DNA of 64,000 nucleotides from Agelas oroides. Taxonomy: Eukaryota; Porifera; Demospongiae; Agelasida; Agelasidae. Below, piece after piece: positions 1 through 57,889 of the stretch; the first letter of the stretch is position 1; every line of letters begins with the position of its first letter. Below the pieces are notes generated by a model. That model did not search any database. It was given only the letters and a program-made list of their open reading frames with translations, and was not told the DNA's origin. The position numbers and the translations under genes are program-made. The DNA is taken from contig OX422189.1 in assembly GCA_949130485.1 (NCBI GenBank), forward strand, positions 5,567,720 to 5,631,719, read 5' to 3'.

Positions 1-270
1 CCAGTAGAGCTAAGTAGAGTAATGGTAGAGTACGTGTAGTATAGCCAAGTAGAGAGATGATAGGGGGCACTAGTGTCATGTAGAGCCAAGGATATCCATG
101 GTAGAGAGTAGTAGACTCTAGTAGAGTTAGGTAGAGAAATGGTAGAGTGTAGTAGAGCCAGGAACAACCATGGTAGAGTCAAGTAGAGCCACGTAGAGCC
201 ATAGAAGTGTTTAGCAGAAGCCAGTAGAGTTAGGTAGAGCAATGGTAAGGTGTAGTAGAGTCCAGTAGAG

Positions 271-1773
271 CTAAGTGGAGCAATGGTAGAGTGTAGTAGA
301 GCCAAGTAGAGACATGGTAGAGTGTAGTAGAGTCATGTAGAGCCAATTAGAGCAATGGTAGAGTGTAGTAGAGTCAAGTAGAGCTACGTAGAGCAATGGT
401 AGAGTGTAGTATAGCGAAGTAGAGCCATGGTAGAGTGTTGTAGAGCCATGTAGAGCCAAGTAGAGCAATGGTAGAGTGTAGTCGAGTCAAGTAGAGCTAA
501 GTAGAGCAAAGGTAGAGTGTAGTAGAGCCAAGTAGACCAATGGTAGAGTGTAGTAGAGTCAAGTAGAGCTACGTAGAGCAATGGTAGAGTGTAGTAGAGC
601 CTCAAGTAGAGACATGGTAGAGTGTAGTAGAGTCATGTAGAGCCAAGTAGAGCAATGGTAGAGTGTAGTAGAGTCAAGTAGAGCTACGTAGAGCAATGGT
701 AGTTGTAGTAGAGCGAAGTAGAGCCATGGTAGAGTGTTGTAGAGTCAAGTAGAGCCAACTAGAGCCATGGTAGGGTGTAGTAGAGCCAAGTAGAGCAATT
801 GTAGAGTGTAGTAGAGTCCAGTAGAGCTAAGTAGAGGAATGGTAGAGTGTAGTAGAGCCCAGTAGAGCCATGGTATATAGAGTGTAGTAGAGTCACCTAG
901 AGCCAAGTAGAGCAGTGATAAAGTGTAGTAGAGTGAAGTAGAGCTAAGTAGAGCACAGGTAGAGTGTAGTAGAGCCAAGTAGAGCAATAGTGGAGTGTAG
1001 TAGAGTCAAGTAGAGCCTACTAGAGCCATGGTAGGGTGTAGTAGAGCCAAGTAGAGTCATGGTAGAGTGTAGTACAGTCAAGAAGAGCCAGGTAGAGCCA
1101 TGGTAGAGTGTACTAGAGTCAAGTAGAGACATGGTAGGGCCACTAGTGTCATGTAGAGACAAGTAGAGCAATGGAAGAGAGTAGTAGAGTCCAGTAGAGC
1201 TAAGTAGAGTAATGGTAGAGTGTAGTAGAACCAGGAAGAGTCATGGTAGAGTACAGTAGAGTCAAGTACAGCCACATAGAGACATAGAAGTGTTTAGTAG
1301 AATCCATCAAATGCAGGTAGAGCAATGGTAAGGTGTAGTAGAGTCCAGTACAGCTAAGTAGAGAAATGGTAGAATGTAGTAGAGCCAAGTAGAGACATGG
1401 TAGAGTGTAGTAGAGACTTGTAGAGCTACATAGAGCCATGGTAGAGTGTAGTAGAGACAAGTAGAGCCATGGTAGAGAGTACTAGAGCCAAGTAGAACAA
1501 TGATAGAGTGTAGTAGAGTGAAGAAGAGCTAAGTAGAGCAAAGGTAGAGTGTAGTACAACCAAGTAGAGCCATGGTGGAGTGTAGTAAAGTCAAGTAGAG
1601 CCAACTAAAGCCATGGTAGAGTGTAGTAGAGCCAAGTAGAGCCATGGTAGAGTGTAGTAGAGTGCAGTAGAGCCAAGTAGAGCCACGTAGAGACATAGAA
1701 GTGTTTAGTAGAATCCATCAAAGTCAGGTAGAGGAATGGTAAGGTGTAGTAGAGTCCAGTAGAGCAAAGTAGA
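271..1773. repeat. Higher-order block A, copy 1 (1503 bp)
   Basis: Block limits are set by recurrence of the same local sequence at 271, 1774, 4015, 7108, 8623, 10126, 12367, 13882, 15385, 17626, 19141 and 20656, so the phase is arbitrary. This copy recurs at 8623 and 13882. Most of its content also recurs inside block B, 1494 bp downstream, so A and B share an ancestor. Confidence 0.85.
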
Positions 1774-4014
1774 TCAACGGTAGAGTGTAGTAGAACCAAG
1801 TAGAGACATGGTAGAATGTAGTAGAGTCATGTAGAGCCAATTAGAGCAATGGTAGAGTGTAGTAGAGTGAAGTAGAGCTACGTTGAGCAATGGTAGAGTG
1901 TAGTATAGCGAAGTAGAGCCATGGTAGAGTGTTGTAGAGCCATGTAGAGCCAAGTAGAGCAATGGTAGAGTGTAGTCGAGTCAAGTAGAGCTAAGTAGAG
2001 CAAAGGTAGAGTGTAGTAGAGCCAAGTAGACCAATGGTAGAGTGTAGTAGAGTCAAGTAGAGCTACGTAGAGCAATGGTAGAGTGTAGTAGAGCCTCAAG
2101 TAGAGACATGGTAGAGTGTAGTAGAGTCATGTAGAGCCAAGTAGAGCAATGGTAGAGTGTAGTAGAGTCAAGTAGAGCTACGTAGAGCAATGGTAGTTGT
2201 AGTAGAGCGAAGTAGAGCCATGGTAGAGTGTTGTAGAGTCAAGTAGAGCCAACTAGAGCCATGGTAGGGTGTAGTAGAGCCAAGTAGAGCAATTGTAGAG
2301 TGTAGTAGAGTCCAGTAGAGCTAAGTAGAGGAATGGTAGAGTGTAGTAGAGCCCAGTAGAGCCATGGTATATAGAGTGTAGTAGAGTCACCTAGAGCCAA
2401 GTAGAGCACTGATAAAGTGTAGTAGAGTGAAGTAGAGCTAAGTAGAGCACAGGTAGAGTGTAGTAGAGCCAAGTAGAGCAATAGTGGAGTGTAGTAGAGT
2501 CAAGTAGAGCCTACTAGAGCCATGGTAGGGTGTAGTAGAGCCAAGTAGAGTCATGGTAGAGTGTAGTACAGTCAAGAAGAGCCAGGTAGAGCCATGGTAG
2601 AGTGTACTAGAGTCAAGTAGAGACATGGTAGGGCCACTAGTGTCATGTAGAGACAAGTAGAGCAATGGAAGAGAGTAGTAGAGTCCAGTAGAGCTAAGTA
2701 GAGTAATGGTAGAGTGTAGTAGAACCAGGAAGAGTCATGGTAGAGTACAGTAGAGTCAAGTACAGCCACATAGAGACATAGAAGTGTTTAGTAGAATCCA
2801 TCAAATGCAGGTAGAGCAATGGTAAGGTGTAGTAGAGTCCAGTACAGCTAAGTAGAGAAATGGTAGAATGTAGTAGAGCCAAGTAGAGACATGGTAGAGT
2901 GTAGTAGACACTTGTAGAGCTACATAGAGCCATGGTAGAGTGTAGTAGAGACAAGTAGAGCCATGGTAGAGAGTACTAGAGCCAAGTAGAACAATGATAG
3001 AGTGTAGTAGAGTGAAGAAGAGCTAAGTAGAGCAAAGGTAGAGTGTAGTACAACCAAGTAGAGCCATGGTGGAGTGTAGTAAAGTCAAGTAGAGCCAACT
3101 AAAGCCATGGTAGAGTGTAGTAGAGCCAAGTAGAGCCATGGTAGAGTGTAGTAGAGTGCAGTAGAGCCAAGTAGAGCCACGTAGAGACATAGAAGTGTTT
3201 AGTAGAATCCATCAAAGGCAGGTAGAGGAATGGTAAGGTGTAGTAGAGTCCAGTAGAGCAAAGTAGATCAACGGTAGAGTGTAGTAGAGCCAAGTAGAGA
3301 CATGGTAGAGGGTAGTAGAGACTTGTAGAGCCAAGTAGAGCAATGGAAGGGTGTAGTAGAGACAAGTAGAGCCATGGTAGAGAGTAGTAGAGCCTTGTAG
3401 AGGGACGTAGAGGAATGGTAGAGTGTAGTCGAGTCAAGTAGAGCTAAGTAGAGCAATGGTAGAGTGTAGTAGAGCCAAGTACAGGCATGGCGGAGTGCAG
3501 TACTGTCAAGTAGAGCCAAGTGGAGCCATGGTAGAGTGTAGTAGAGTCAAGTATAGCCACATAGAGCCATGGTAGAGTGTAGTAGAAACCAGTAGAGCTA
3601 AGAAGAGCAATGGTAGAGTGTAGTATAGAGCCAAGTAGAGCCAAGGTAGAGTGCAGTAGAATCAAGTACAACCAAGTAGATCCATGGTAGAGCATAGTAG
3701 AGCCGACTAGGTTCAAGTAGAGCCATGGTAGACAGTAGGAGAGTCCAGTAGAGCTAAGTAGAGTAATGGTAGAGTACGTGTAGTATAGCCAAGTAGAGAG
3801 ATGATAGGGGGCACTAGTGTCATGTAGAGCCAAGGATATCCATGGTAGAGAGTAGTAGACTCTAGTAGAGTTAGGTAGAGAAATGGTAGAGTGTAGTAGA
3901 GCCAGGAACAACCATGGTAGAGTCAAGTAGAGTCACGTAGAGCCATAGAAGTGTTTAGCAGAAGCCAGTAGAGTTAGGTAGAGCAATGGTAAGGTGTAGT
4001 AGAGTCCAGTAGAG
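1774..4014. repeat. Higher-order block B, copy 1 (2241 bp)
   Basis: The block begins as a near copy of block A and then carries about 750 bp of extra subunits. It recurs at 10126-12366 and 15385-17625 with the same length. It contains copies of the motif AGAAGTGTTTAG, near 2778 and 3190 and at 3947. Confidence 0.85.
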
Positions 4015-5529
4015 CTAAGTGGAGCAATGGTAGAGTGTAGTAGAGCCAAGTAGAGACATGGTAGAGTGTAGTAGAGTCATGTAGAGCCAATTAGAGCAAT
4101 GGTAGAGTGTAGTAGAGTCAAGTAGAGCTACGTAGAGCAATGGTAGAGTGTAGTATAGCGAAGTAGAGCCATGGTAGAGTGTTGTAGAGCCATGTAGAGC
4201 CAAGTAGAGCAATGGTAGAGTGTAGTCGAGTCAAGTAGAGCTAAGTAGAGCAAAGGTAGAGTGTAGTAGAGCCAAGTAGACCAATGGTAGAGTGTAGTAG
4301 AGTCAAGTAGAGCTACGTAGAGGAATGGTAGAGTGTAGTAGAGTCAAGTAGAGCTAAGTAGAGGAATGGTAGAGTGTAGTAGAGCCAGGTAGAGGCATGA
4401 CGGAATGCAGTACAGTCAAGTAGAGCCAAGTGGAGCCATGGTAGAGTGTAGTAGAGTCAAGTAGATCCACATAGAGCCATGGTAGAGTGTAGTAGAGTCC
4501 ATGTAGAGCTAAGTAGAGTACTTGTAGAGTGAAGTAGAGCCAAGTAGACCCATGATAGAGGGTACTAGAGTCATGTAGAGGCAAGGAGCAAAGGTAGAGT
4601 GCAGCAGAGTCCAATAGAGGTAAGTAGAGTAATGGTAGAGTGTAGTAGAACCAGGAAGAGGCATGGTAGAGTGCAGTAGAGTGAAGTAGAGCCACGTAGA
4701 GACATAGAAGTGTTTAGTAGAATCCATCAAAGGCAGGTAGAGGAATGGTAAGGTGTAGTAGAGTCCAGTAGAGCAAAGTAGATCAACGGTTGTGTGTAGT
4801 AGAGCCAAGTAGAGACATGGTAGAGGGTAGTAGAGACTTGTAGAGCTAAGTAGAGCAATGGAAGGGTGTAGTAGAGACAAGTAGAGACATGGTAGAGAGT
4901 AGTAGAGCCATGTAGAAGCACGTAGAGGAATGGTAGAGTGTGGTAGAGTCAAGTAGAGCTAAGTAGAGCAATGGTAGAGTGTAGTAGAGCCAAGTACAGG
5001 CATGGCGGAGTGCAGTACTGTCAAGTAGAGCCAAGTGGAGCCATGGTAGAGTGTAGTAGAGTCAAGTATAGCCACATAGAGCCATGGTAGAGTGTAGTAG
5101 AAACCAGTAGAGCTAAGAAGAGCAATGGTAGAGTGTAGTATAGAGCCAAGTAGAGCCAAGGTAGAGTGCAGTAGAATCAAGTACAACCAAGTAGATCCAT
5201 GCTAGAGCATAGTAGAGCCGACTAGGTTCAAGTAGAGCCATGGTAGACAGTAGGAGAGTCCAGTAGAGCTAAGTAGAGTAATGGTAGAGTACGTGTAGTA
5301 TAGCCAAGTAGAGAGATGATAGGGGGCACTAGTGTCATGTAGAGCCAAGGATATCCATGGTAGAGAGTAGTAGACTCTAGTAGAGTTAGGTAGAGAAATG
5401 GTAGAGTGTAGTAGAGCCAGGAACAACCATGGTAGAGTCAAGTAGAGCCACGTAGAGCCATAGAAGTGTTTAGCAGAAGCCAGTAGAGTTAGGTAGAGCA
5501 ATGGTAAGGTGTAGTAGAGTCCAGTAGAG
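4015..5529. repeat. Higher-order block C, copy 1 (1515 bp)
   Basis: It recurs with the same length at 7108, 12367, 17626 and 19141. Identity with the copy 8352 bp downstream ends at about 5547, where a different block follows here. Confidence 0.85.
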
Positions 5530-7107
5530 CTAAGTGGAGCAATGGTAGGGTGTAGTAGAGCCAAGTAGAGCCATGGTAGAGTGTAGTAGAGTGAAGTAGA
5601 GCCACGTAGAGCCATGGTAGAGTGTAGTAGAGTCCTGCAGAGCTAAGTAGAGTAATGGTAGAGTGTAGTAGAGTCCAGTAGAGGTAAGTAGAGTAATGGT
5701 AGAGTGTAGTAGAACCAGGAAGAGTCATGGTAGAGTACAGTAGAGTCAAGTATAGCCACGTAGAGACATAGAAGTGTTTAGTAGAATCCATCAAAGGCAG
5801 GTAGAGCAATGGTAAGGTGTAGTAGAGTCCAGTACAGCTAAGTAGAGAAATGGTAGAGTGTAGTAGAGCCAAGTATAGAGATGGTAGAGTGTAGTAGAGT
5901 CTTGTAGAGCCAAGTAGAGCAATGGTAGAGTGTAGTAGAGCCAAGTAGAGCCATGTAGAGGCACATACAGGAATGGTAGAGTGTAGTAGAGTCAAGAAGA
6001 GCTAAGTAGAGCAACGATAGAGTGTAGTAGAGCCAGGTAGAACCATAGTAGAGTGTAGTAGAGTCAAGTACAACCAAGTAGAGCCATGGTAGAGTGTAGT
6101 AAGAGTCCAGTAGAGGTAAGTAGATTAATGGTAGAGTATAGTAGAACCAGGAAGAGCCATGGTAGAGTGCAGTAGAGTCATGTAGAGCCACGTAGAGCCA
6201 TAGAAGTGTTTAGTAGAATCTAGTAGAGCTAGGTAGAGCAATGGTAAGGTGTAGTAGAGTCTAGTAGAGCCAAGTAGAGCAATGGTAGAGTGTAGTAGAG
6301 CCAAGGAGAGCTATGGTAGAGATTAGTTGAGCCATGTAGACACAAGTAGAGTCATGGTAGAGTGCAGTAGAATTATGTAGAGCGAAGCAGAGCCATATAG
6401 TAGGGAGTAGTGGAGTCCAGTAGAGCTAAGTAGAGCAATGGTAGAGTGTAGTATATAGCCAACTAGAGACATGGTAGGGGGCACTAGTGTCATGTAGAGA
6501 CAAGTAGAGCCATGTTAGAGAGTAGTAGAGCCATGTAGAGGCAAGTAGAGATATGGTAGAGTGTAGTAGAGTCAAGTAGAGCTAAGTAGAGCAATTGTAG
6601 AGTGTAGTAGAGCCAAGTTGAGCTAAGTACAGCAATGGTAGAGTGTAGTAGAGCCAAGTAGAACAATGATAGAGTGTAGTAGAATGAAGAAGAGCTAAGT
6701 AGAGCAAAGGTAGAGTCAAGTAGAGCCAAGTAGAGCCATGGTGGAGTGTAGTAGAGTCAAGTAGAGCCAACTAGAGCCATGGTAGGGTGTAGTAGAGCCA
6801 AGTAGAGCCATGGTAGAGTGTAGTATATAGCCAACTAGAGACATGGTAGAGTGTAGTAGAGTGAAGTAGAGCCAATTAGAGCCATGGTAGAGTGTAGTAG
6901 AGTCCAGCAGAGCTAAGTAGAGTAATGGTAGAGTGTAGTAGAGTCCAGTAGAGCTAAGTAGAGTAATGGTAGAGTGTAGTAGAACCAGGTAGAGTCATGG
7001 TAGAGTACAGTAGAGTCAAGTACAGCAACGTAGAGACATAGAAGTGTTTAGTAGAAGCCAGTAGAGTTAGGTAGAGCAATGGTAAGGTGTAGTAGAGTCC
7101 AGTAGAG
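5530..7107. repeat. Divergent block D interrupting the A-B-C order (1578 bp)
   Basis: This block occupies the place where an A block would be expected. It is made of the same decamers, but its subunit order matches the older right-hand part of the array (around 36170-37500, 40996-42200 and 42325-42640) and not the surrounding A, B or C copies. Confidence 0.75.
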
Positions 7108-8622
7108 CTAAGTGGAGCAATGGTAGAGTGTAGTAGAGCCAAGTAGAGACATGGTAGAGTGTAGTAGAGTCATGTAGAGCCAATTAGAGCAATGGTAGAG
7201 TGTAGTAGAGTCACGTAGAGCTACGTAGAGCAATGGTAGAGTGTAGTATAGCGAAGTAGAGCCATGGTAGAGTGTTGTAGAGCCATGTAGAGCCAAGTAG
7301 AGCAATGGTAGAGTGTAGTTGAGTCAAGTAGAGCTAAGTAGAGCAAAGGTAGAGTGTAGTAGAGCCAAGTAGACCAATGGTAGAGTGTAGTAGAGTCAAG
7401 TAGAGCTACGTAGAGGAATGGTAGAGTGTAGTAGAGTCAAGTAGAGCTAAGTAGAGGAATGGTAGAGTGTAGTAGAGCTAGGTAGAGGCATGACGGAATG
7501 CAGTACAGTCAAGTAGAGCCAAGTGGAGCCATGGTAGAGTGTAGTAGAGTCAAGTAGATCCACATAGAGCCATGGTAGAGTGTAGTAGAGTCCATGTAGA
7601 GCTAAGTAGAGTACTTGTAGAGTGAAGTAGAGCCAAGTAGACCCATGATAGAGGGTACTAGAGTCATGTAGAGGCAAGGAGCAAAGGTAGAGTGCAGCAG
7701 AGTCCAGTAGAGCTAAGTAGAGTAATGGTAGAGTGTAGTAGAACCAGGAAGAGGCATGGTAGAGTGCAGTAGAGTGAAGTAGAGCCACGTAGAGACATAG
7801 AAGTGTTTAGTAGAATCCATCAAAGGCAGGTAGAGGAATGGTAAGGTGTAGTAGAGTCCAGTAGAGCAAAGTAGATCAACGGTTGAGTGTAGTAGAGACA
7901 AGTAGAGACATGCTAGAGGGTAGTAGAGACTTGTAGAGCCAAGTAGAGCAATGGAAGGGTGTAGTAGAGACAAGTAGAGACATGGTAGAGAGTAGTAGAG
8001 CCATGTAGAAGCACGTAGAGGAATGGTAGAGTGTAGTAGAGTCAAGTAGAGCTAAGTAGAGCAATGGTAGAGTGTAGTAGAGCCAAGTACAGGCATGGCG
8101 GAGTGCAGTACTGTCAAGTAGAGCCAAGTGGAGTCATGGTAGAGTGTAGTAGAGTCAAGTATAGCCACATAGAGCCATGGTAGAGTGTAGTAGAAACCAG
8201 TAGAGCTAAGAAGAGCAATGGTAGAGTGTAGTATAGAGCCAAGTAGAGCCAAGGTAGAGTGCAGTAGAATCAAGTACAACCAAGTAGATCCATGCTAGAG
8301 CATAGTAGAGCCGACTAGGTTCAAGTAGAGCCATGGTAGACAGTAGGAGAGTCCAGTAGAGCTAAGTAGAGTAATGGTAGAGTACGTGTAGTATAGCCAA
8401 GTAGAGAGATGATAGGGGGCACTAGTGTCATGTAGAGCCAAGGATATCCATGGTAGAGAGTAGTAGACTCTAGTAGAGTTAGGTAGAGAAATGGTAGAGT
8501 GTAGTAGAGCCAGGAACAACCATGGTAGAGTCAAGTAGAGCCACGTAGAGCCATAGAAGTGTTTAGCAGAAGCCAGTAGAGTTAGGTAGAGCAATGGTAA
8601 GGTGTAGTAGAGTCCAGTAGAG
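7108..8622. repeat. Higher-order block C, copy 2 (1515 bp)
   Basis: Same length and subunit order as the C blocks at 4015, 12367 and 17626, with scattered substitutions. With D1 it explains the 8352-bp spacing between the first and second sets of blocks: 5259 + 1578 + 1515. Confidence 0.8.
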
Positions 8623-11600
8623 CTAAGTGGAGCAATGGTAGAGTGTAGTAGAGCCAAGTAGAGACATGGTAGAGTGTAGTAGAGTCATGTAGAGCCAATT
8701 AGAGCAATGGTAGAGTGTAGTAGAGTCAAGTAGAGCTACGTTGAGCAATGGTAGAGTGTAGTATAGCGAAGTAGAGCCATGGTAGAGTGTTGTAGAGCCA
8801 TGTAGAGCCAAGTAGAGCAATGGTAGAGTGTAGTCGAGTCAAGTAGAGCTAAGTAGAGCAAAGGTAGAGTGTAGTAGAGCCAAGTAGACCAATGGTAGAG
8901 TGTAGTAGAGTCAAGTAGAGCTACGTAGAGCAATGGTAGAGTGTAGTAGAGCCTCAAGTAGAGACATGGTAGAGTGTAGTAGAGTCATGTAGAGCCAAGT
9001 AGAGCAATGGTAGAGTGTAGTAGAGTCAAGTAGAGCTACGTAGAGCAATGGTAGTTGTAGTAGAGCGAAGTAGAGCCATGGTAGAATGTTGTAGAGTCAA
9101 GTAGAGCCAACTAGAGCCATGGTAGGGTGTAGTAGAGCCAAGTAGAGCAATTGTAGAGTGTAGTAGAGTCCAGTAGAGCTAAGTAGAGGAATGGGAGAGT
9201 GTAGTAGAGCCCAGTAGAGCCATGGTATATAGAGTGTAGTAGAGTCACCTAGAGCCAAGTAGAGCACTGATAAAGTGTAGTAGAGTGAAGTAGAGCTAAG
9301 TAGAGCACAGGTAGAGTGTAGTAGAGCCAAGTAGAGCAATAGTGGAGTGTAGTAGAGTCAAGTAGAGCCTACTAGAGCCATGGTAGGGTGTAGTAGAGCC
9401 AAGTAGAGTCATGGTAGAGTGTAGTACAGTCAAGAAGAGCCAGGTAGAGCCATGGTAGAGTGTACTAGAGTCAAGTAGAGACATGGTAGGGCCACTAGTG
9501 TCATGTAGAGACAAGTAGAGCAATGGAAGAGAGTAGTAGAGTCCAGTAGAGCTAAGTAGAGTAATGGTAGAGTGTAGTAGAACCAGGAAGAGTCATGGTA
9601 GAGTACAGTAGAGTCAAGTACAGCCACATAGAGACATAGAAGTGTTTAGTAGAATCCATCAAATGCAGGTAGAGCAATGGTAAGGTGTAGTAGAGTCCAG
9701 TACAGCTAAGTAGAGAAATGGTAGAATGTAGTAGAGCCAAGTAGAGACATGGTAGAGTGTAGTAGAGACTTGTAGAGCTACATAGAGCCATGGTAGAGTG
9801 TAGTAGAGACAAGTAGAGCCATGGTAGAGAGTACTAGAGCCAAGTAGAACAATGATAGAGTGTAGTAGAGTGAAGAAGAGCTAAGTAGAGCAAAGGTAGA
9901 GTGTAGTACAACCAAGTAGAGCCATGGTGGAGTGTAGTAAAGTCAAGTAGAGCCAACTAAAGCCATGGTAGAGTGTAGTAGAGCCAAGTAGAGCCATGGT
10001 AGAGTGTAGTAGAGTGCAGTAGAGCCAAGTAGAGCCACGTAGAGACATAGAAGTGTTTAGTAGAATCCATCAAAGTCAGGTAGAGGAATGGTAAGGTGTA
10101 GTAGAGTCCAGTAGAGCAAAGTAGATCAACGGTAGAGTGTAGTAGAGCCAAGTAGAGACATGGTAGAGTGTAGTAGAGTCATGTAGAGCCAATTAGAGCA
10201 ATGGTAGAGTGTAGTAGAGTGAAGTAGAGCTACGTTGAGCAATGGTAGAGTGTAGTATAGCGAAGTAGAGCCATGGTAGAGTGTTGTAGAGCCATGTAGA
10301 GCCAAGTAGAGCAATGGTAGAGTGTAGTCGAGTCAAGTAGAGCTAAGTAGAGCAAAGGTAGAGTGTAGTAGAGCCAAGTAGACCAATGGTAGAGTGTAGT
10401 AGAGTCAAGTAGAGCTACGTAGAGCAATGGTAGAGTGTAGTAGAGCCTCAAGTAGAGACATGGTAGAGTGTAGTAGAGTCATGTAGAGCCAAGTAGAGCA
10501 ATGGTAGAGTGTAGTAGAGTCAAGTAGAGCTACGTAGAGCAATGGTAGTTGTAGTAGAGCGAAGTAGAGCCATGGTAGAGTGTTGTAGAGTCAAGTAGAG
10601 CCAACTAGAGCCATGGCAGGGTGTAGTAGAGCCAAGTAGAGCAATTGTAGAGTGTAGTAGAGTCCAGTAGAGCTAAGTAGAGGAATGGTAGAGTGTAGTA
10701 GAGCCCAGTAGAGCCATGGTATATAGAGTGTAGTAGAGTCACCTAGAGCCAAGTAGAGCACTGATAAAGTGTAGTAGAGTGAAGTAGAGCTAAGTAGAGC
10801 ACAGGTAGAGTGTAGTAGAGCCAAGTAGAGCAATAGTGGAGTGTAGTAGAGTCAAGTAGAGCCTACTAGAGCCATGGTAGGGTGTAGTAGAGCCAAGTAG
10901 AGTCATGGTAGAGTGTAGTACAGTCAAGAAGAGCCAGGTAGAGCCATGGTAGAGTGTACTAGAGTCAAGTAGAGACATGGTAGGGCCACTAGTGTCATGT
11001 AGAGACAAGTAGAGCAATGGAAGAGAGTAGTAGAGTCCAGTAGAGCTAAGTAGAGTAATGGTAGAGTGTAGTAGAACCAGGAAGAGTCATGGTAGAGTAC
11101 AGTAGAGTCAAGTACAGCCACATAGAGACATAGAAGTGTTTAGTAGAATCCATCAAATGCAGGTAGAGCAATGGTAAGGTGTAGTAGAGTCCAGTACAGC
11201 TAAGTAGAGAAATGGTAGAATGTAGTAGAGCCAAGTAGAGACATGGTAGAGTGTAGTAGAGACTTGTAGAGCTACTTAGAGCCATGGTAGAGTGTAGTAG
11301 AGACAAGTAGAGCCATGGTAGAGAGTACTAGAGCCAAGTAGAACAATGATAGAGTGTAGTAGAGTGAAGAAGAGCTAAGTAGAGCAAAGGTAGAGTGTAG
11401 TACAACCAAGTAGAGCCATGGTGGAGTGTAGTAAAGTCAAGTAGAGCCAACTAAAGCCATGGTAGAGTGTAGTAGAGCCAAGTAGAGCCATGGTAGAGTG
11501 TATTAGAGTGCAGTAGAGCCAAGTAGAGCCACGTAGAGACATAGAAGTGTTTAGTAGAATCCATCAAAGGCAGGTAGAGGAATGGTAAGGTGTAGTAGAG

Positions 11601-26600: not shown

Positions 26601-27437
26601 GAGCCATGGTAGAGTGCAGTAGAGTGAAGTAGAGCCACGTAGAGACATAGAAGTGTTTAGTAGAATCCATCAAAAGCAGGTAGAGGAATGGTAAGGTGTA
26701 GTATAGTCCAGTAGAGCAAAGTAGATCAACGGTAGAGTGTAGTAGAGACTTGTAGAGCCAAGTAGAGCAATGGAAGAGTGTAGTAGAGACAAGTAGAGCC
26801 ATGGTAGAGAGTAGTAGAGCCATGTAGAAGCACGTAGAGGAATGGTAGAGTGTAGTAGAGTCAATTAGAGCTAAGTCGAGCAATGGTAGAGTGTAGTAGA
26901 GCCAAGTACAGGCATGGCGGAGTGCAGTACTGTCAAGTAGAGCCAAGTGGAGCCATGGTAGAGTGTAGTAGAGTCAAGTATAGCCACATAGAGCCATCGT
27001 AGAGTGTAGTAGAAACCAGTAGAGCTAAGAAGAGCAATGGTAGAGTGTAGTATAGAGCCAAGTAGAGCCAAGGTAGAGTGCAGTAGAGTCAAGTACAGGC
27101 AAGCAGATCCATGGTAGAGCATAGTAGAGCTAGGTTCAAGTAGAGCCATGGTAGACAGTAGGAAAGTCCAGTAGAGCTAAGTAGAGTAATGGTAGAGTAC
27201 GTGTAGTATAGCCAAGTAGAGAGATGATAGGGGGCACTAGTGTCATGTAGAGCCAAGGATATCCATGGTAGAGAGTAGTAGACTCTAGTAGAGTTAGGTA
27301 GAGAAATGGTAGAGTGTAGTAGAGCCAGGAACAACCATGGTAGAGTCAAGTAGAGCCACGTAGAGCCATAGAAGTGTTTAGAAGAAGCCAGTAGAGTTAG
27401 ATAGAGCAATGGTAAGGTGTAGTAGAGTCCAGTAGAG
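20656..27437. repeat. Second repeat domain: 3059-bp unit and its 3723-bp derivative
   Basis: The segment 20656-23714 (3059 bp) recurs from 23715, but the second copy is 3723 bp long. The extra 664 bp come from an internal duplication: at about 24738 the sequence jumps back and repeats material first read from about 24020, then rejoins the original order. Offsets are 3059 before the jump and 3723 after it. Confidence 0.82.
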
Positions 27438-41700: not shown

Positions 41701-44700
41701 AGAGTAATGGTAAGGTGTAGTAGAGTCCAGTAGAGCTAAGTAGAGCAATGGTAGATCATAGTAGAGCCAAGTAGAGACATGGTAGAGTGTAGTAGGGTCT
41801 TGTAGAGCCAAGTAGAGCAATGGTAGAGTGTAGTAGAGCCAAGGAGAGCCATGGTAGAGATTAGTTGAGCCATGTAGACACAAGTAGAGTCATGGTAGAG
41901 TGCAGTAGAATTAAGTAGAGCGAAGCAGAGCCATATAGTAGGGAGTAGTGGAGTCCAGTAGAGCTAAGTAGAGCAATGGTAGAGTGTAGTATATAGCCAA
42001 CTAGAGACATGGTAGGGGGCACTAGTGTCATGTAGAGACAAGTAGAGCCATAGTAGAGAGTAGTAGAGCCATGTAGAGGCAAGTAGAGATATGGTAGAGT
42101 GTAGTAGAGTCAAGTAGAGCTAAGTAGAGCAATTGTAGAGTGTAGTAGAGCCAAGTTGAGCTAAGTACAGCAATGGTAGAGTGTAGTAGAGTGAAGAAGA
42201 GCTAAGTAGAGCAAAGGTAGAGTGTAGTAGAGTCAAGTAGAGCCAAGTAGAGCCATGGTAGAGTGTAATAGAGTCCTGCAGAGCTAAGTAGAGTAATGGT
42301 AGAGTGTAGTAGAGTCCAGTAGAGCTAAGTAGAGTAATGGTAGAGTGTAGTAGAACCAGGAAGAGTCATGCTAGAGTACAGTAGAGTCAAGTATAGCCAC
42401 GTAGAGACATAGAAGTGTTTAGTAGAATCCATCAAAGGCAGGTAGAGCAATGGTAAGGTGTAGTAGAGTCCAGTAGAGCTAAGTAGAGAAATGGTAGAGT
42501 GTAGTAGAGCCAAGTAGAGACATGGTAGAGTGTAGTAGAGTCTTGTAGAGCCAAGTAGAGCAATGGTAGAGTGTAGTAGAGCCAAGTAGAGCCATGTAGA
42601 GGCACATACAGGAATGGTAGAGTGTAGTAGAGTCAAGAAGAGCTAAGTAGGGCAACGGTAGAGTGTAGTAGAGCCAAGTTGACCCATTGTAGAGTGTAGT
42701 AGAGTAAAGTAGAGCTACGTATAGGAATGATAGAGTGCAGTAGAGTCAAGTATAGCTAAGTAGAGCAATGGTAGAGTGTAGTAGAGCCAGGTAGAGGCAT
42801 GGCTGAATGCAGTACAGTCAAGTAGAGCCAAGTGGAGCCATGGTAGAGTGTAGTAGAGTCAAGTAGTTCCACATAGAGCCATGGTAGAGTGTAGTAGAGT
42901 CCAGTAGAGCTAAGTAGAGTACTTGTAGAGTGAAGTAGAGCCAAGTAGACCCATGATAGAGGGTACTAGAGTCAAGTAGAGCGAAGTAGAGCAATGGTAG
43001 GGTGCAGTAGAGTCCAGGAGAGCTAAGTAGAGTAATGGTAGAGTGTAGTAGAACCAGGAAGAGCCATGGTAGAGTGCAGTAGAGTGAAGTAGAGCCACGT
43101 AGAGACATACAAGTGTTTAGTAGAATCCATCAAAGGCAGGTAGAGGAATGGTAAGGTGTAGTAGAGTCCAGTAGAGCAAAGTAGATGAACTGTAGAATGT
43201 AGTAGAGCCAAGTAGAGACATGGTAGAGGGTAGTAGAGACTTGTAGAGCCAAATAGAGCAATGGAAGAGTGTAGTAGAGACAAGTAGAGCCATGGTAGAG
43301 AGTAGTAGAGCCTTGTAGAGGGACGTAGAGGAATGGTAGAGTGTAGTAGAGTCAAGTAGAGCTAAGTAGAGCAATGGTAGAGTGTAGTAGTGCCAAGTAC
43401 AGGCATGGCGGAGTACAGTACAGTCAAGTAGAGCCAAGTGGAGCCATGGTAGAGTGTAGTAGAGTCAAGTATAGCCGCATAGAGCCATGGTAGAGTGTAG
43501 TAGAAACCAGTAGAGCTAAGAAGAGCAATGGTAGAGTGTACTATAGAGCCAAGTAGAGCCTAGGTAGAGTGCAGTAGAGTCAAGTACAGCCAAGTAGATC
43601 CATGGTAGAGCATAGTAGAGTCGACTAGGTTCAAGTAGAGCCATGGTAGACAGTAGGAGAGTCCAGTAGAGCTAAGTAGAGTAATGGTAGAGTACGTGTA
43701 GTATAGCCAAGTAGAGAGATGATAGGGGGCACTAGTGTCATGTAGAGCCAAGGATATCCATGGTAGAGAGTAGTAGACTCTAGTAGAGTTAGGTAGAGAA
43801 ATGGTAGAGTGTAGTAGAGCCAGGAACAACCATGGTAGAGTCAAGTAGAGCCACGTAGAGCCATAGAAGTGTTTAGCAGAAGCCAGTAGAGTTAGGTAGA
43901 GCAATGGTAAGGTGTAGTAGAGTCCAGTAGAGCGAAGTTGAGCAATCGTAGAGTGTAGTAGAGCCAAGTAGAGAAATGGTAGAGTGTAGTAGAGTCATGT
44001 AGAGCCAATTAGAGCAATGGTAGAGTGTAGTAGAGTCAAGTAGAGCTATGTAAAGCAATGGTAGAGTGTAGTATAGCGAAGTAGAGCCATGGTAGAGTGT
44101 TGTAGAGCCATGTAGAGCCAAGTAGAGCAATGGTAGAGTGTAGTCGAGTCAAGTAGAGCTAAGTAGAGCAAAGGTAGAGTGTAGTAGAGTCAAGTAGACC
44201 AATGGTAGAGTGTAGTAGAGTCAAGTACAGCTACGTAGAGCAATGGTAGAGTGTTGTAGAGCCTCAAGTAGAGACATTTTAGAGTGTAGTAGAGTCTTGT
44301 AGAGCCAAGTAGAGCAATTGAAGAGTGTAGTAAAGTCAAGTAGAGCTAAGTAGAGCAAAGGTAGAGTGTAATAGAGCCAAGAAGACCAACGGTAGAGTGT
44401 AGTAGAGTCAAGTAGAGCTTCGTAGAGCAATGGTAGGGTGTAGTAGAGCCTCAAGTTGAGACATGGTAGAGTGTAGTTGAGTCATGTAGAGCCAAGTAAA
44501 GGAATGGAAGAGTGTAGTAAAGTCAAGTAAAGCTAAGTAGAGCAAAGGTTGAGTGTAGTAGAGTCAAGTAGAGACATGGTAAGTGGCACTAGTGTCATGT
44601 AGATACAAGTAGAGCCATGGTAGAGAGTAGTACAGTCCAGTAGAGCTAAGTAGAGTAAAGGTAGAGTGCAGTAGAACCAAGAAGAGCCATGGTAGAGTGA

Positions 44701-47700
44701 ATTAGAGTCAAGTAGAGCCACGTAGAGCCAGAGAAGTGTTTAGTAGAATCCAGTAGAGCTAGGTAGAGCAGTGGTAAGGTGTAGTAGAGTCCAGTAGAAC
44801 TAAGTAGAGCAATGGTAGATCATAGTAGAGCCAAGTAGAGTCATGGTAGAGTGTAGTAGGATCTTGTAGAGCGAAGTAGAGCATTGGTAGAGTGTAGGAG
44901 AGCCAAGGAGAGCCATGGTAGAGAGTAGTTGAGCCATGTAGACACAAGTAGAGTCATGGTAGAGTGCAGTAGAAGTAAGTAGAGCGAAGCAGAGTCATAT
45001 AGTAGGGAGTAGTGGAGTCCAGTAGAGCTAAGTAGAGCAATGGTAGAGTGTAGTATATAGCCAACTCGAGACATGGTAGGGGGCACTAGTGTCATGTAGA
45101 GAGAAGTAGAGCCATGGAACAGAGTAGTAGAGCCATGTAGAGGCAAGTAGACATATGGTAGAGTTTAGTAGAGTCAAGTAGAGCAAAGTAGAGCAATTGT
45201 AGAGTGTAGTAGAGCCAAGTAGAGCCATGTAGAGTGTAGTAGAGTAAAGTAGAGCTATGTAGAGGAATGGTAGAGTGTAGTAGAGTCAAGTAGAGCTAAG
45301 TAGAGCAATGGTAGAGTGTAGTAGATCCAGGTAGAGGCATGGCGGAATGCAGTACAGTCAAGGAGAGCCAAGTGGAGCCATGGTAGAGTGTAGTAGAGTC
45401 AAGTAGATCCACATAGAGCCATGGTAGAGTGTAGTAGAGTCCAGTAGAGCTAAGTAGAGTACTTGTAGAGTGAAGTAGAGCCAAGTAGACCCATGATAGA
45501 GGGTACTAGAGTCAAGTAGAGCCAAGTAGAGCAATGGTAGAGTGCAGTAGAGTCCAGTAGAGCTAAGTAGAGTAATGGTAGAGTGTAGTAGAACCAGGAA
45601 GAGCCATAGTAGAGTGCAGTAGAGTGAAGTAGAGCCACGTAGAGACATAGAAGTGTTTAGTAGAATCCATCAAAGGCAGGTAGAGGAATGGTAAGGTGTA
45701 GTAGAGTCCAGTAGAGCAAAGTAGATCAACGGTAGAGTGTAGTAGAGCCAAGTAGAGACATGGTAGAGTGTAGTAGAGTCATGTAGAGCCAATTAGAGCA
45801 ATGGTAGAGTGTAGTGGAGTCAAGTAAAGCTACGTAGAGCAATGGTAGAGTGTAGTATAGCGAAGTAGAGCCATGGTAGAGTGTTGTAGAGCCATGTAGA
45901 GCCAAGTAGAGCAATGGTAGAGTGTAGTCGAGTCAAGTAGAGCTACGTAGAGCAATGGTAGAGTGTAGTAGAGCCTCAAGTAGACGCATGGTAGAGTGTA
46001 GTAGAGTCATGTAGAGCCAAGTAGAGCAATGGTAGAGTGTAGTAGAGTCAAGTAGAGCTACGTAGAGCAATGGTAGAGTGTAGTAGAGCGAAGTAGAGCT
46101 ATGGTAGAGTGTTGTAGAGTCAAGTAGAGCCAACTAGAGCCATGGTAGGGTGTAGTAGAGCCAAGTAGAGCAATTGTAGAGTGTAGTAGAGTCCAGTAGA
46201 TCTAAGTAGAGGAATGGTAAAGTGTAGTAGAGTCCAGTAGAGCCATGGTATATAGAGTGTAGTAGAGTCACGTAGAGCCAAGTAGAGCACTGATAAAGTG
46301 TAGTAGAGTGAAGTAGAGCTAAGTAGAGCACAGGTAGAGTGTAGTAGAGCCAAGTAGAGCCATAGTGGAGTGTAGTAGAGTCAAGTAGAGCCTACTAGAT
46401 CCATGGTAGGGTGTAGTAGACCCAAGTAGAGTCATGGTAGAGTGTAGTACAGTCAAGAAGAGCCAAGTAGAGCCATGGTAGAGTGTAATAGAGTCCAGTA
46501 GATCTAATTAGAGTAATGGTAGAGTGTAGTAGAGCCAGGTAGAGCCATGGTAGAGTGTACTAGAGTCAAGTAGAGACATGGTAGGGGCCACTAGTGTCAT
46601 GTAGAAACAAGTAGAGCAATGGTAGAGAGTAGTAGAGCCCAGTAGAGGTAAGTAGATTAATGGTAGAGTATAGTAGAACCAGGAAGAGCCATGGTAGAGT
46701 GCAGTAGAGTCAAGTAGAGCCACGTAGAGCCATAGATGTGTTTAGTAGAATCCAGTAGAGCTAGGTAGAGCAATGGTAAGGTGTAGTAGAGTCCAGTAGA
46801 GCCAAGTAGAGCAATGGTAGCGCGTAGTAGAGCCAAGTAGAGACATGGTAGAGTGTAGTAGGGTGTTGTAGAGCCAAGTAGAGCAATGGTAGAGTGTAGT
46901 AGAGCCAAGTAGAGCCATGGTAGAGAGTAGTAGAGCCGTGTAGAGCCAAGTAGAGTCATGGTAGAGTGCAGTTGAATCAAGTAGAGACAAGTAGAGCCAT
47001 CATAGAGAGTAGTAGAGTCCTGTAGAGCTAAGTAGAGTAATGGTACACTGTAGTAGAACCAGGAAGAGCCTTGGTAGAGTGTAGTAGAGTCAAGTAGAGC
47101 CACATAGAGCCATGGTAGTGTGTAGTAGAAACCAGTAGAGCTAAGAAGAGCAATGGTAGAGTGTACTATAGAGCCAAGTAGAGCCATGGTAGAGTGCAGT
47201 AGAGTCAAGTACAGCCAAGTAGAGCCATGGTAGAGCATAGTAGAGTCCTCTAGGTTCAAGTAGAGCCGTGGTAGATGGTAGGAGACTCCAGTAGAGCTAA
47301 GTAGAGTAATGGCAGAGTATGTGTAGTATAGCCAAGTAGAGACATGATAGGGGGCACTAGTGTCATGTAGAGCCAAGCAGAGCCATGGTAGAGAGTAGTA
47401 GACTCTAGTAGAGCTAAGTACAGAAATGGTAGAGTGTAGTAGAGCCAGGAACAACCATGGTAGAGTCAAGTAGAGCCACGTAGAGCCATAGAAGTGTTTA
47501 GCAGAATCCAGTAGAACTAGGTAGAGCAATGTTAAGGTGTATAGTAGAGTCCAGTAGAGCTAAGTAGAGCAATGGTAGGTGTAGTAGACCCAAGTAGAGA
47601 CAGGGTAGAGTGTTGCAGAGTCATGTAGATCCTAGTAGAGTAATGGAAGAGTGTAGTAGAGTCAAGTAAAGCTAAGTAGAGCAAAGGTAGAGTGTAGTAG

Positions 47701-50700
47701 AGTCAAGTAGAGACATGGTAGGGGGCACTAGTGTCATGTAGATACAAGTAGAGCCATGATATAGAGTAGTAGAGTCTAGTAGAGCTAAGTAGAGTAATGG
47801 TAGATTGTAGTAGAGCGATGGTAGAGTGCAGTAGAGTCAAGTAGAGCCACGTAGAGCTAGAGAAGTGTTTAGTAGAATCCAGTAGAGCTAGGTAGAGCAT
47901 GCAATGGTAAGGTGTATAGTAGAGTCCAGTAGAGCTAACTAGAGAAATGGTAGATCATAGCAGAGCCAAGTAGAGACATGGTAGAGTGTAGTAGGGTCTT
48001 GTAGAGCCAAGTAGAGCCATGGTAGAGAGTAGTAGAGCCATGTAGGCGCAAGTAGAGTTATGGTAGAGTGCAGTAGAATTAAGTAGAGCGAAGCAGAGCC
48101 ATAGTAGGGAGTAGTGGAGTCCAGTAGAGCTAAGTAGAGTAATGGTAGAGGGTAGTAGAGCCAAGTAGAGCTAAGTAGAGCAATGGTAGAGTGTAGTAGA
48201 GTGAAGAGCTAAGTAGAGCAAAGGTAGAGTGTAGTAGAGCCAAGTAGAGCCATGGTGGAGTGTAGTAGAGTCAAGTAGAGCCAACTAGAGCCATGGTAGG
48301 GTGTAGTAGAGCAAAGTAGAGCCATGGTAGAGTGTAGTAGAGTGAAGTAGAGCCAAGTAGAGCCATGGTAGAGTGTAGTAGAGTCCAGTAGATCTAAGTA
48401 GAGCAATGGCAGAGTGTAGTAGAGCCAAGTAGAGCCATGGTAGAGTGTAGTAGAGTCCAGCAGAGCTAAGTAGAGTAATGGTAGAGTGTAGAACCAGGAA
48501 GAGCCATGGTAGAGTGCAGTAGAGTCAAGTAGAGCCACGTAGAGACATAGAAGTGTTTAGTAGAATCCATCAAAGGCAGGTAGAGCAATGGTAAGGTGTA
48601 GTAGAGTCCAGTAGAGCTAAGTAGAGCAATGGTAGAGTGTAGTAGAGCCAAGTAGAGACATGGTAGAGTGTAGTAGAGTCTTGTAGAGCCAAGTAGAGCA
48701 ATGGTAGAGTGTAGTAGAGCCAAGTAGAGCCATGTAGAGGCACATACAGGAATGGTAGAGTGTAGTAGAGTGAAGAAGAGCTAAGTAGAGCAACGGTAGG
48801 GTGTAGTAGAGCCAAGTTGAGCCATTGTAGAGTGTAGTAGACTCAAGTAGAGCTACGTAGAGCAATGGTAGAGTGTAGTAGAGTCAAGTAGAGCTACGGA
48901 GAGCAATGGTAGAGTGTAGTAGAGTCAAGTAGAGCTATGTAGAGCAATGGTAGAGTGTAGTAGAGCGAAGTATAGCCATGGTAGAGTGTGGTAGAGTCAA
49001 GTAGAGCCAAGTAGAGCCACAAGTGAAGCTTTGGTATAGTGTAGTAGAGTCCAGTAGAGCTAAGTACAGTAATGGTAGAGTGTAGTAGAGCCCAGTAGAG
49101 CCATGGTATATAGAGTGTAGTAGAGTCTCGTAGAGCCGAGTAGAGCACTGATAAAGTGTAGTAGAGTGAAGTAGAGCTAAGTAGAGCAAAGGTAGAGTGT
49201 AGTAGAGCCAAGTAGAGCCATAGTGGAGTGTAGTAGAGTCAAGTAGCTAGAGCCTACTAGAGCCATGGTAGGGTGTATGTAGTAGAGCCAAGTAGAGTCA
49301 TGGTAGAGTGTAGTAGAGTCAAGAAGAGCCAAGTAGAGCCATGGTAGAGTGTAATAGAGTCCAGTAGATCTAATTAGAGTAATGGTAGAGTGTAGTAGAG
49401 CCAGGTAGAGCCATGGTAGAGTGTACTAGAGTCAAGTAGAGACATGGTAGGGGCCACTAGTGTCATGTAGAGACAAGTAGAGCAATGGTAGAGAGGAGTA
49501 GAGTCCAGTAGAAGTAAGTAGATTAATGGTAGAGTATAGTAGAACCAGGAAGAGCCATGGTAGAGTGCAGTAGAGTCAAGTGGAGCCACGTAGAGCCATA
49601 GAAGTGTTTAGTAGAATCCAGTAGAGCTAGGTAGAGCAATGGTAAGGTGTAGTAGAGTCCAGTAGAGCCAAGTAGAGCAATGGTAGAGCGTAGTAGAGCC
49701 AAGTAGAGACATGGTAGAGTGTAGTAGGGTCTTGAAGAGCCAAGTAGAGCAATGGTAGAGTGTAGTAGAGCCAAGTAGAGCCATGGTAGAGAGTAGTAGA
49801 GCCATGTAGAGCCAAGTAGAGTCATGGTAGAGTGCAGTTGAATCAAGTAGAGACACGTAAAGCCATGGTAGAGAGTAGTAGAGTCCAGTAGAGCTAAGTA
49901 GAGTAATGGTAGACTGTAGTAGAACCAGGAAGAGCCTTGGTAGAGTGTAGTAGAGTCAAGTAGAGCCACATAGAGCCATGGTAGTGTGTAGTAGAAAGCA
50001 GTAGAGCTAAGAAGAGCAATGGTAGAGTGTACTATAGAGCGAAGTAGAGCCATGGTAGAGTGCAGTAGAGTCAAGTACAGCCAAGTAGAGCCATGGTAGA
50101 GCATAGTAGAGTCGACTAGGTTCAAGTAGAGCCATGGTAGACAGTAGGAGAGTCCAGTAGAGATAAGTAGAGTAATGGTAGAGTACGTGTAGTATAGCCA
50201 AGTAGAGACATGATAGGGGGCACTAGTGTCATGTAGAGCCAAGGATATCCATGGTAGAGAGTAGTAGACTCTAGTAGAGTTAGGTAGAGATGTGGTAGAG
50301 TGTAGTAGAGCCAGGAACAACCATGGTAGAGTCAAGTAGAGCCACGTAGAGCCACAGAAGTGTTTAACAGAATCCAGTAGAGCTAGGTAGAGTAATGGTA
50401 AGGTGTAGTAGAGTCCAGTAGAGCTAAGTAGAGCAATGGTAGAGTGTAGTAGTGCCAAGTAGCTCGAGACATGGTAGATTGTAGTAGAGTCATGTAGAAC
50501 GAAGTAGAGCAATGGTAGAGTGTAGTAGAGTCCAGTAGAGCTACGTAGAGCAATGGTAGAGTGTAGTAGAGCGAAGTAGAGCCATGGTAGAGTGTTGTAC
50601 AGTCATGTAGAGCCAAGTAGAGCAATGGTAGAGTGTAGTCGAGTCAAGTAGAGCTAAGTAGAGCAAAGGTAGAGTGTAGTAGAGCCACGTAGACCAATGG

Positions 50701-51884
50701 TAGAGTGTAGTAGAGTCAAGTAGAGCTACGCAGAGCAATGGTAGAGTGTAGTAGAGCAAAGTAGAGCCATCGTAGAGTGTTGTAGAGTCATGTAGAGCCA
50801 AGTAGAGCAATGGTAGAGTGTAGTAGAGTCAAGTAGAGCTAAGTAGAGGAAAGGTAGAGTGTAGTAGAGGCAAGTAGAGCCATGGTAGAGTGTAGTAGAG
50901 TCAAGTAGAGACGTGGTAGGGGCCACTAGTGTCATGTAGAGAGAAGTAGAGCACTTATAGAGAGTAGTACAGTCCAGTAGAGTTAAGTAGATTAATGGTA
51001 GAGTGTAGTAGACCAGGATGAGCCATGGTAGAGTGCAGCAGAGTCAAGTAGAGCCAAGTAGAGCAATGGAAGAGTGTAGTAGAGTCAAGTAAAGTTAAGT
51101 AGAGCAAAGGTGGAGCGTGGTAGAGTCAAGTAGAGACATGGTAGGGGGCACTAGTGTCATGTAGATACAAGTAGAGCCATGGTAGAGAGTAGTAGAGTCC
51201 AGTATAGCTAAGTAGAGTAATGGTAGAGTGTAGTAGAACCAAGAAGAGCCATGGTAGAGTGTAGTAGAGTGAAGTAGAGCCACGTACAGCCAGAGAAGTG
51301 TTTAGTAGAATCCAGTAGAGCTAGGTAGAGCAATGGTAAGGTGTAGTAGAGTCCAGTAGAGCTAAGTAGAGCAATGGTGGGTGATAGTGGAGCCAAGTAG
51401 AGACATGGTAGAGTGTTGTAGGGTCTTGTAGAGCCAAGTAGAGCAATAGTAGAGTGTAGTAGAGCCAAGTAGAGCCATGGTAGAGAGTAGTAGTAGAGCC
51501 ATGTAGACGCAAGTACAGGCATGGTAGAGTGCAGTAGAATTAAGTAGAGCGAAGCAGAGCCATAGGAGGGAGTAGTGCAGTCCAGTGGAGCTGAGTAATT
51601 GTAGAGTGTAGTATACAGCCAAGTAGAGACATTGTAGGGGGCACTTGTGTCATGCAGAGACAAGTAGAGCTATGGTAGAGAGTAGTAGAGTCCAGTATAG
51701 CTAAGTAGAGTAATGATAAACTGAAGTAGAACGAGGAAGAGCCATGGTAGCGTGCAGTAAGAGTCAAGTAGAGCCACGTAGAGCCATAGTAGTGTTTAGT
51801 AGAATCCAGGAGAACTAGGTAGAGCAATGGTAAGGTGTAGTAGACTCCAGTAGAGCTAAGTAGAGAAATGGTAGAGCATAGTAG
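32771..51884. repeat. Divergent right-hand part of the satellite
   Basis: Long similarities persist with irregular spacing: about 37556-38760 recurs 5200 bp later, and part of it again 7740 bp later. About 38700-40700 recurs about 7430-7470 bp later, and about 46657-47530 recurs 2866 bp later. Copies differ by more substitutions and small indels than in the left part. The final few hundred bases are the most degenerate and contain runs without a clear GTAGAG. Confidence 0.75.
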
Positions 51885-56951: not shown

Positions 56952-57166
56952 TCATTATCTTGAAATTTATACAGCCTGAACTCAAGAGTATTAACTATAG
57001 TGTATTGCATTCTGTGTTCCTTGGTTTGTATATATTGTTTCATGCCAGTATTATGCCACCTCCTGGCTGTACATGAGTGTTTTGGAAAAGTGTCAAGGAG
57101 CATTTTGAATTTATAGTCCAGTCAGCAGCTGTATATAAAAGTGGTGATGGAAAGGTAGCCTCAAAT

Positions 57167-57738: not shown

Positions 57739-57889
57739 GAACAGCACTGGACTTAATTAGTGTGAAGTAGTTTTTGTTCAAATTGGAAATCTCTCTATCT
57801 TATCAACCATAATCTCCAACCTAGGTTAGACTATACCACCATAGCGCGCACACACACACACACACTCCCATGCTGCATATGCCATGGAG

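Follow-up and report, generated by a model that had tools for sequence, protein, structure and literature searches.

The hexamer GTAGAG recurs at close to every turn of the double helix across some 52 kb of the Agelas oroides genome, and the locus raises the question of whether this spacing is a device, kept because it presents one face of the DNA, or a trace of the way in which the DNA was copied. The window, by which we mean the whole stretch analysed, comprises 64,000 bp (C7:5,567,720-5,631,719) of an assembly of 259.3 Mb in 141 contigs. The explanation we favor, with a probability of roughly 0.5, is that the array belongs to an abundant satellite family whose blocks would be heterochromatin, often probably of the (peri)centromere, and that its helical beat would be a by-product of copying.

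The satellite occupies the first four fifths of the window. GTAGAG is present in 3,316 exact copies between positions 1 and 51884, versus 48 expected from base composition, while the remainder of the window (51885-64000) contributes four to the whole-window total of 3,320. Its complement CTCTAC does not occur in the array, which is thus arranged head-to-tail in a single orientation. The principal features of the window are as follows.

1..51884 (C7:5,567,720-5,619,603), plus strand: right-hand end of the C7 satellite block, subfamily A, in one orientation and extending leftward beyond the window
471..511, plus strand: example of the 41-bp monomer, 10+10+10+11, one of 807 intact 41-bp units in the array
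1616..1646, plus strand: example of the 31-bp variant, 10+10+11, with one module fewer, one of 380 such units in the array
3593..3658, plus strand: 33-bp duplication marking one copy of a higher-order repeat; the next copy lies at 5108-5173, 1,515 bp on
51885..64000, no strand assigned: flank free of the satellite, containing a short minisatellite and reading frames that resemble genes

Further copies of the 33-bp duplication begin at 8201, 11945, 13460, 17204, 18719, 20234, 23297, 27020, 32353, 34011 and 38311. A Pfam scan of two reading frames in the flank returned no match, and a coding role for the array itself was considered and rejected, the longest frame inside it (359 codons, minus strand) being repetitive. 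An earlier interpretation made from the letters of the window, to which we refer as the sequence-only reading, had placed the right edge of the array correctly at 51,884 and had confined the array to 1..51884; leftward it in fact runs on, with interruptions, to approximately C7:5,221,781, the first sampler match among the matches listed. The block ending at 5,619,603 therefore spans about 0.4 Mb near the middle of a contig of 10,525,237 bp that is assembled telomere-to-telomere, beginning in CCCTAA repeats and ending in TTAGGG repeats. Among the interruptions, a probe at 5,337,720 lacks the satellite, and an island of about 3 kb at 5,547,720 carries a reverse-transcriptase frame (PF00078, E 3e-11); a probe at 5,437,720 holds satellite in both orientations.

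Parsing by dynamic programming, with permitted steps of 8-15 bp, divided the array into 5,028 steps, 3,560 of them 10 bp, 1,343 of them 11 bp and 125 of other lengths, with a mean of 10.314 bp. The recurrence every 10 or 11 bp and the mean of about 10.3 bp given by the sequence-only reading are borne out by these figures. The 11-bp modules it had called rare account for 27% of the steps; they are preceded by a run of three 10-bp modules in 837 of 1,343 cases, of two in 394 and of some other number in 112. When units are defined by cutting after every 11-bp module, the array resolves into 807 units of 41 bp, 380 of 31 bp, 12 of 21 bp, 17 of 51 bp and a few others, in agreement with the 10+10+10+11 and 10+10+11 subunits described from the letters. 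The consensus of the 41-bp monomer is GTAGAGTGTA GTAGAGTCAA GTAGAGCCAA GTAGAGCAATG, and the 31-bp units fit it best with the second module removed (317/380), less often the first (43/380) or the third (20/380), such that the 31- and 21-bp variants are monomers without some of their modules. The 11-bp module is a fixed member of the 41-bp monomer and not an inserted correction; as such, the phase correction that had been ascribed to it is unnecessary. Above the monomer stand higher-order repeats of 1,494, 1,515, 3,744 and 5,259 bp, among others (the top lags by self-identity or 40-mer recurrence), and one 50-mer of the C7 higher-order type has 20 matches genome-wide, 17 on C7 and three on C11, with none on any other contig.

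The same architecture extends through much of the genome. The pattern GTAGAG-N4-GTAGAG-N5-GTAGAG has 43,696 exact matches genome-wide, versus one for a reversed control. A DNA search with a 72-bp consensus, by a method that passes over common words, gave no match. Given its density in the window (7.9 per kb, 408 in 51.9 kb) and in other samples of two subfamilies, A (about 3.9 per kb, 141 matches) and B (about 5.0 per kb, 68 matches), the family can be estimated at roughly 5.6-11 Mb, or 2-4% of the genome. All 20 sampled 2-kb stretches, which were picked at pattern matches, have a mean step of 10.16-10.39 bp and a single orientation each. Subfamily A reads GTAGAGTGTA GTAGAGTCAA GTAGAGYCAA GTAGAGCMATG and subfamily B GTAGAGTGTG GTAGAGTGAG GTAGAGTCGG GTCGAGCCAGG, the module borders of the latter having been set by us. 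Units of 31 and 41 bp occur in both, the 41-bp unit holding in A of other chromosomes as well as in B, and the two share the 10/10/10/11 spacing while their linkers differ; they are found together on C5, C11, C13 and C21. In the same assembly, the 22.4-kb contig C141 has COX1 matches in two pieces, with TGA inside the COX1 frames and, in the gap between the pieces, a frame that by eye resembles a LAGLIDADG endonuclease; along with the 23 chromosome-size contigs and the TTAGGG-type telomeres, these features are in keeping with a demosponge.

A shared spacing over differing linkers is one of the observations that speak for a view contained in the sequence-only reading, namely that the spacing is under selection to stay near the helical repeat, with one face thereby shown to nucleosomes or to a binding protein, as with Prod on Prodsat in Drosophila; taken together with what follows, we judge it improbable. 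Over short distances the phase of the motif is indeed strong. Over 147 bp, the vector strength amounts to 0.96 when the best period is used (its median being 10.28) and to 0.90-0.92 at 10.2-10.3, and the coherence of exact-motif pairs at a period of 10.3 is 0.73 at 100-150 bp. A loss of phase within 100-200 bp had been named beforehand as telling against the structural idea, and no such loss is seen. The supposition that the same face of the helix persists for tens of kilobases does not survive, in that pair coherence falls to 0.57 at 200-300 bp, 0.32 at 300-500 bp and 0.05 at 500-800 bp, with values farther out of 0.13 (800-1200 bp), 0.21 (1200-1600 bp), 0.13 (2-3 kb), 0.13 (5-7 kb) and 0.09 (10-12 kb). 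Parsed modules behave likewise, with 0.725, 0.54, 0.32 and 0.06 in the bins 100-150, 200-300, 300-500 and 500-800 bp, versus 0.49-0.52, 0.23-0.29, 0.08-0.15 and 0.04-0.12 in three step shuffles, and the better phase of the real 10/11 order at 100-150 bp counts in favor of selected spacing. It is the odd modules that break the phase, since coherence at 500-800 bp stays at 0.87 once the 125 odd steps are swapped for 10 or 11. They are mostly without visible compensation: 26 of 124 have another odd module within the next ten, and 11 of these 26 (11/124 odd modules) are a 12 followed by a 9 or an 8, changes of opposite sign that count for selected spacing.

Arrays elsewhere bear on the matter from both sides. 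In all 25 samples picked at pattern matches, the vector strength per 147 bp at the best period is 0.92-0.99, and since the phase of the motif is strong within this length both here and in those 25 arrays, it is plausible that nucleosomes favor one rotational setting. Over 2 kb, 9 of the 25 arrays keep a coherence of at least 0.90 at 800-1200 bp and four fall below 0.20, while none of 25 pieces of 2 kb from the window array reaches 0.90; phase therefore varies much between arrays. Those with long phase support selected spacing and count against the by-product reading, while the decay within 500-800 bp in the window array weighs on the other side.

The order of bases within the module was examined for tuning to nucleosomes. 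The WW-minus-SS amplitude is 0.119 in the array and 0.139 in subfamily B; the corresponding figures are 0.086 for non-satellite DNA, 0.070 for dinucleotide shuffles and 0.165 for the 601 sequence, and random ordering of whole modules leaves the array at 0.118. In 400 permutations of the ten module positions, computed on the first 1,200 modules, the mean amplitude is 0.211 and a value no lower than the observed 0.115 is attained in 81.5%, which speaks against selected spacing. The WW periodicity of about 10 bp, a Prodsat-type trait, is thus present in the array at a level not above that of random orders within the module. Any 10-bp repeat is phased regardless of its letters, and this module is less so than most orders; by this simple measure, the sequence of the module is not adapted to nucleosome bending. 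A roll-energy model of the nucleosome, in which 46% of permutations of the module order were as deep as the real one and the bending energy of the real order lay above that of 91.7% of them, is not relied upon because it fails on 601, returning a rotational depth of 10.7 for the 601 sequence versus 59.5 for the array. A literature search for an artificial nucleosome-positioning 20-mer found nothing.

The possibility that the repeat bends in phase, such that the array would be a curved or superhelical element, was assessed with a wedge model, and we give it next to no credence. The predicted ratio of contour to end-to-end length over 125 bp has a mean of 1.17 in the array, slightly above the 1.085 of non-satellite DNA, which is the point in its favor. 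A phased A6 control gives 3.1 in the identical model, and the array peaks at 1.35, less than the 1.47 reached by non-satellite DNA. Runs of AAAA/TTTT are nearly missing, at 0.06 per kb versus 14.2 in the flank; the array shows neither the A-tracts at 10-11 bp nor the strong predicted curvature of phased A-tract DNA.

Selection on spacing ought to leave a deficit of insertions and deletions, and recent copies within C7 permit a rough test. We took as recent 33 higher-order pairs, not independent of one another, with at least 96% identity over at least 1,200 aligned bases; they amount to 49,173 bp at a mean identity of 99.0%, with 478 substitutions and 35 gaps. Sixteen gaps do not exceed 5 bp, 10 have the size of modules (10, 31, 72 or 113 bp) and the remaining nine measure 8 bp (six gaps) or 13, 18 and 33 bp (one each). 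Gaps of module size are what exchange in register would produce, a process that by itself would maintain the spacing; they make up 10 of the 19 gaps above 5 bp, and the other nine count against our preferred explanation. There are 30 substitutions per small gap and, for gaps not of module size, 19 (478:25). The long-term record, which differs in kind from the recent measure, has 0.0786 substitutions per bp in the motif and 0.0024 odd-length modules per bp, or 33:1, and about 17:1 once the 112 irregular runs of 10-bp modules are added. Setting 19 against 33 would suggest a possible deficit of indels, in favor of selected spacing; small indels alone give 30:1, the long-term ratio with irregular runs is about 17:1, and, because the recent (19-30) and long-term (17-33) ranges overlap, this rough test does not clearly indicate that spacing is selected, a mild deficit being compatible with it. 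An indel count from BLAST self-alignment (in every identity band, 4.0-5.7 substitutions for each small gap) was discarded because the alignments ran through misaligned monomers. In sum, what stands of the structural idea in the sequence-only reading is the module mean of 10.31 bp and the strong phase within 147 bp; phase correction, long-range phase, clear selection, tuning and strong curvature are not supported.

Sampling found at least 26 interstitial blocks on at least 19 of the 23 contigs of chromosome size, among which C24, at 89 kb, is not counted; assemblies with 23 chromosomes are also described for the sponges Spongilla lacustris (PMC12141999) and Eunapius fragilis (PMC12616128). Blocks were grouped by hand from matches to samplers of rarer variants, their extents running from first to last match and being possibly discontinuous, and any block could be misplaced by scaffolding. 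Since the samplers pick rare variants and missed an array on C4, the census is incomplete. Among the matches listed, the blocks are:

C2: 6.35-6.60 Mb
C3: 8.18-8.79 and 11.70-12.32 Mb
C5: 9.02-9.33 Mb
C7: 5.22-5.62 Mb
C8: 7.49-7.57 Mb
C9: 6.93-7.40 Mb
C10: 2.74-3.12 Mb
C11: 2.68-2.91 and 5.80-5.94 Mb
C12: 4.54-4.59 Mb
C13: 2.57-2.80 and 5.07-5.72 Mb
C14: 2.72-3.17 and 5.84-5.94 Mb
C15: 2.46-2.70 and 5.18-5.51 Mb
C16: 1.76-1.98 and 4.32-4.74 Mb
C18: 5.77-5.78 Mb
C19: 1.71-1.76 Mb
C20: 5.60-5.61 Mb
C21: 2.52-2.74 and 5.66-5.69 Mb
C22: 3.47-3.50 Mb
C23: 4.40-4.79 Mb
Single sampler matches in real arrays, excluded from blocks: C8 3.90; C10 6.74 and 7.29; C12 2.20; C19 1.88 Mb

Also excluded are B-type satellite on C4, present in one of nine probes (a single 200-bp probe at 6.7 Mb, an earlier one at 6.2 Mb being negative), and a degenerate array of about 35 kb in mixed orientation on C1 (26.35-26.38 Mb, at least 18 matches), a 2-kb sample of which contains 72 motifs. 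On C6 and on C17 alike, 20 of 20 probes, 400 bp long and placed 0.3-0.7 Mb apart such that a block below about 0.4 Mb could be missed, were negative, as was one further 500-bp probe on each.

The family thus forms head-to-tail arrays on most chromosomes, as would be expected of a centromeric satellite. For all 26 blocks among the matches listed, the center is 1.49 Mb or more away from the chromosome end, as happens in 4.5e-5 of uniform placements; the blocks are accordingly not subtelomeric, and small dispersed arrays do occur close to ends (C1:542,138, C1:32,557,016, C2:5,621 and C2:515,004, among the matches listed). One block was detected on 12 of the 19 chromosomes among the matches listed, three of these (C8, C10 and C12) having further arrays marked by single matches. 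The family does not form the one block per chromosome that a simple centromere satellite would give: seven chromosomes carry two blocks among the matches listed (C3, C11, C13, C14, C15, C16 and C21), and C6 and C17 yielded none in the probes described above. The canonical CENP-B box, NTTCGNNNNANNCGGGN, has no match on either strand of 132 kb of C7 and six sampled loci.

These observations make room for a different account, in which the blocks would be neutral or selfish interstitial heterochromatin of the knob type, and the centromeres would lie elsewhere, specified by other DNA or epigenetically. The double blocks, the further arrays on C8, C10 and C12, the two chromosomes on which none was found, the small dispersed arrays and the scatter of block centers anywhere between 0.24 and 0.79 of the chromosome all speak for this account, while the avoidance of the outer 1.49 Mb by every block center and the single block on 12 of 19 chromosomes speak against it; we hold it to be possible, if doubtful. 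The two blocks of the seven pairs lie 2.66-3.52 Mb apart, center to center, with a standard deviation of 0.27 that 0.00026 of random placements match in tightness, in a post hoc test with approximate block edges that leaves out the second arrays of C8, C10 and C12, single matches about 3.6, 3.8 and 4.4, and 2.4 Mb from the respective block, which would loosen the spacing. It is tempting to suppose that sponge centromeres sit on a helical-turn satellite and that several chromosomes have paired or multi-site blocks about 3 Mb apart, A and B perhaps having distinct roles, an idea to which we would attach only a small probability.

The best reading of the blocks is that they represent a satellite of the sponge that is either (peri)centromeric or heterochromatic, and (peri)centromeric heterochromatin would fit because they are interstitial, large, present on most chromosomes and associated with a higher-order repeat that is in part chromosome-specific. 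It is reasonable to postulate that the family grew through duplication of a module of about 10 bp, and that unequal exchange or slippage followed, in which homology between modules would favor breakpoints at multiples of 10, 31 or 41 bp; such exchange alone would hold the spacing near 10.3 bp. The resulting blocks would be constitutive heterochromatin and on many chromosomes probably (peri)centromere, and nucleosomes upon them may favor one rotational setting, given a period near the helical turn. The helical beat would then be a consequence, perhaps of help in packing, and not something that phase correction maintains. The satellite offers ready FISH and ChIP probes for most chromosomes and makes the question of the sponge centromere directly testable; full-text literature searches, judged by titles and abstract openings, found no paper on sponge centromeres. 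It also allows one to ask, in an animal other than Drosophila, whether satellite units of near-helical length are favored because they stabilize nucleosomes or come about through copying alone; here the rough indel test does not point clearly to selected spacing.

Among known systems, alpha satellite shares with this family a hierarchy of monomer and higher-order repeat, one 50-mer of the C7 type being confined to two chromosomes here (C7 17/20, C11 3/20); it differs in its 171-bp monomer and in its CENP-B box, present in part of its monomers, of which no canonical form was found here. The interstitial heterochromatin of maize knobs is comparable in forming more than one large internal block per chromosome, and is built of units of about 180 and 350 bp. 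To our knowledge, no 31/41-bp grouping is known for Dodecasatellite of Drosophila, whose unit also differs from ours. It is alike in having short units of two adjacent lengths (11/12 bp), and it lies near centromeres (PMC5844345). Satellite units are described as mostly of nucleosomal length or of 5-10 bp (PMC8122249), and the nearest parallel is among the latter: the 10-mer Prodsat (AATAACATAG), which is believed to lie at centromeres 2 and 3 of Drosophila (PMC5844345), and other 5- and 10-mer centromeric satellites of Drosophila, which form large arrays of units near one helical turn (PMC5844345, PMC8997354). The periodicity of Prodsat near 10 bp has been proposed to favor rotational phasing of nucleosomes (PMC5844345; similarly PMC8997354), an argument that lends some support to selected spacing and that means that the idea in the sequence-only reading was already known; that a near-helical satellite favors nucleosome phasing is an existing idea, applied here to a new family. 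This family, like Prodsat, forms long arrays from a basic element close to 10 bp in length (mean 10.31 bp here, 10.16-10.39 bp in 20 of 20 other samples). Compared by eye alone, the Prodsat unit and the one described here, GTAGAGNNNN, are unrelated in sequence, and, unlike Prodsat, this family has a 41-bp monomer with an 11-bp member, higher-order repeats and a presence on most chromosomes. What is new here is a satellite of two subfamilies, with blocks on at least 19 of 23 chromosome-size contigs and arrays on two more.

Two blocks of the satellite are found on each of seven chromosomes (C3, C11, C13, C14, C15, C16 and C21), separated from centre to centre by 2.66-3.52 Mb, and this spacing is tighter than that under random placement, as judged by a post hoc test from which C8, C10 and C12 were left out. 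The orientation of the paired blocks is variable. Among the matches listed, there was also a small dispersed array (C2:515004-516182) whose related modules are spaced 36 bp apart, a distance that does not correspond to a whole number of helical turns.

Within the array at positions 1-51884, AAAA/TTTT is nearly absent (0.06 per kb, versus 14.2 per kb in the non-satellite flank), and the strands are asymmetric (G 33%, C 11%). The following features accompany the C7 block and its flank:

C7:5,548,204-5,550,927 (485-3208 of L002, a stretch left of the window), reverse-transcriptase frame of 907 aa (PF00078), within the block
52421-52749, minisatellite with a 69-bp unit (4.8 copies, 93% matches), ~540 bp beyond the array edge
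61030-62718, (-) strand, 562-codon frame

No Pfam match was obtained for the 562-codon frame, which adjoins what appear, from likeness by eye only, to be duplicated gene pieces of the flank (55730-56200 with ~63130-63600, and 58330-58700 with ~61520-61900).

Elsewhere in the assembly, the mitochondrial COX1 (L101, C141:13976-16550) appears to be split by an intron, inside which lies a frame judged by eye to be endonuclease-like. Another COX1 match, without an internal stop, is located at C107:16176-16808, and C107 is possibly a bacterial contig within the assembly.
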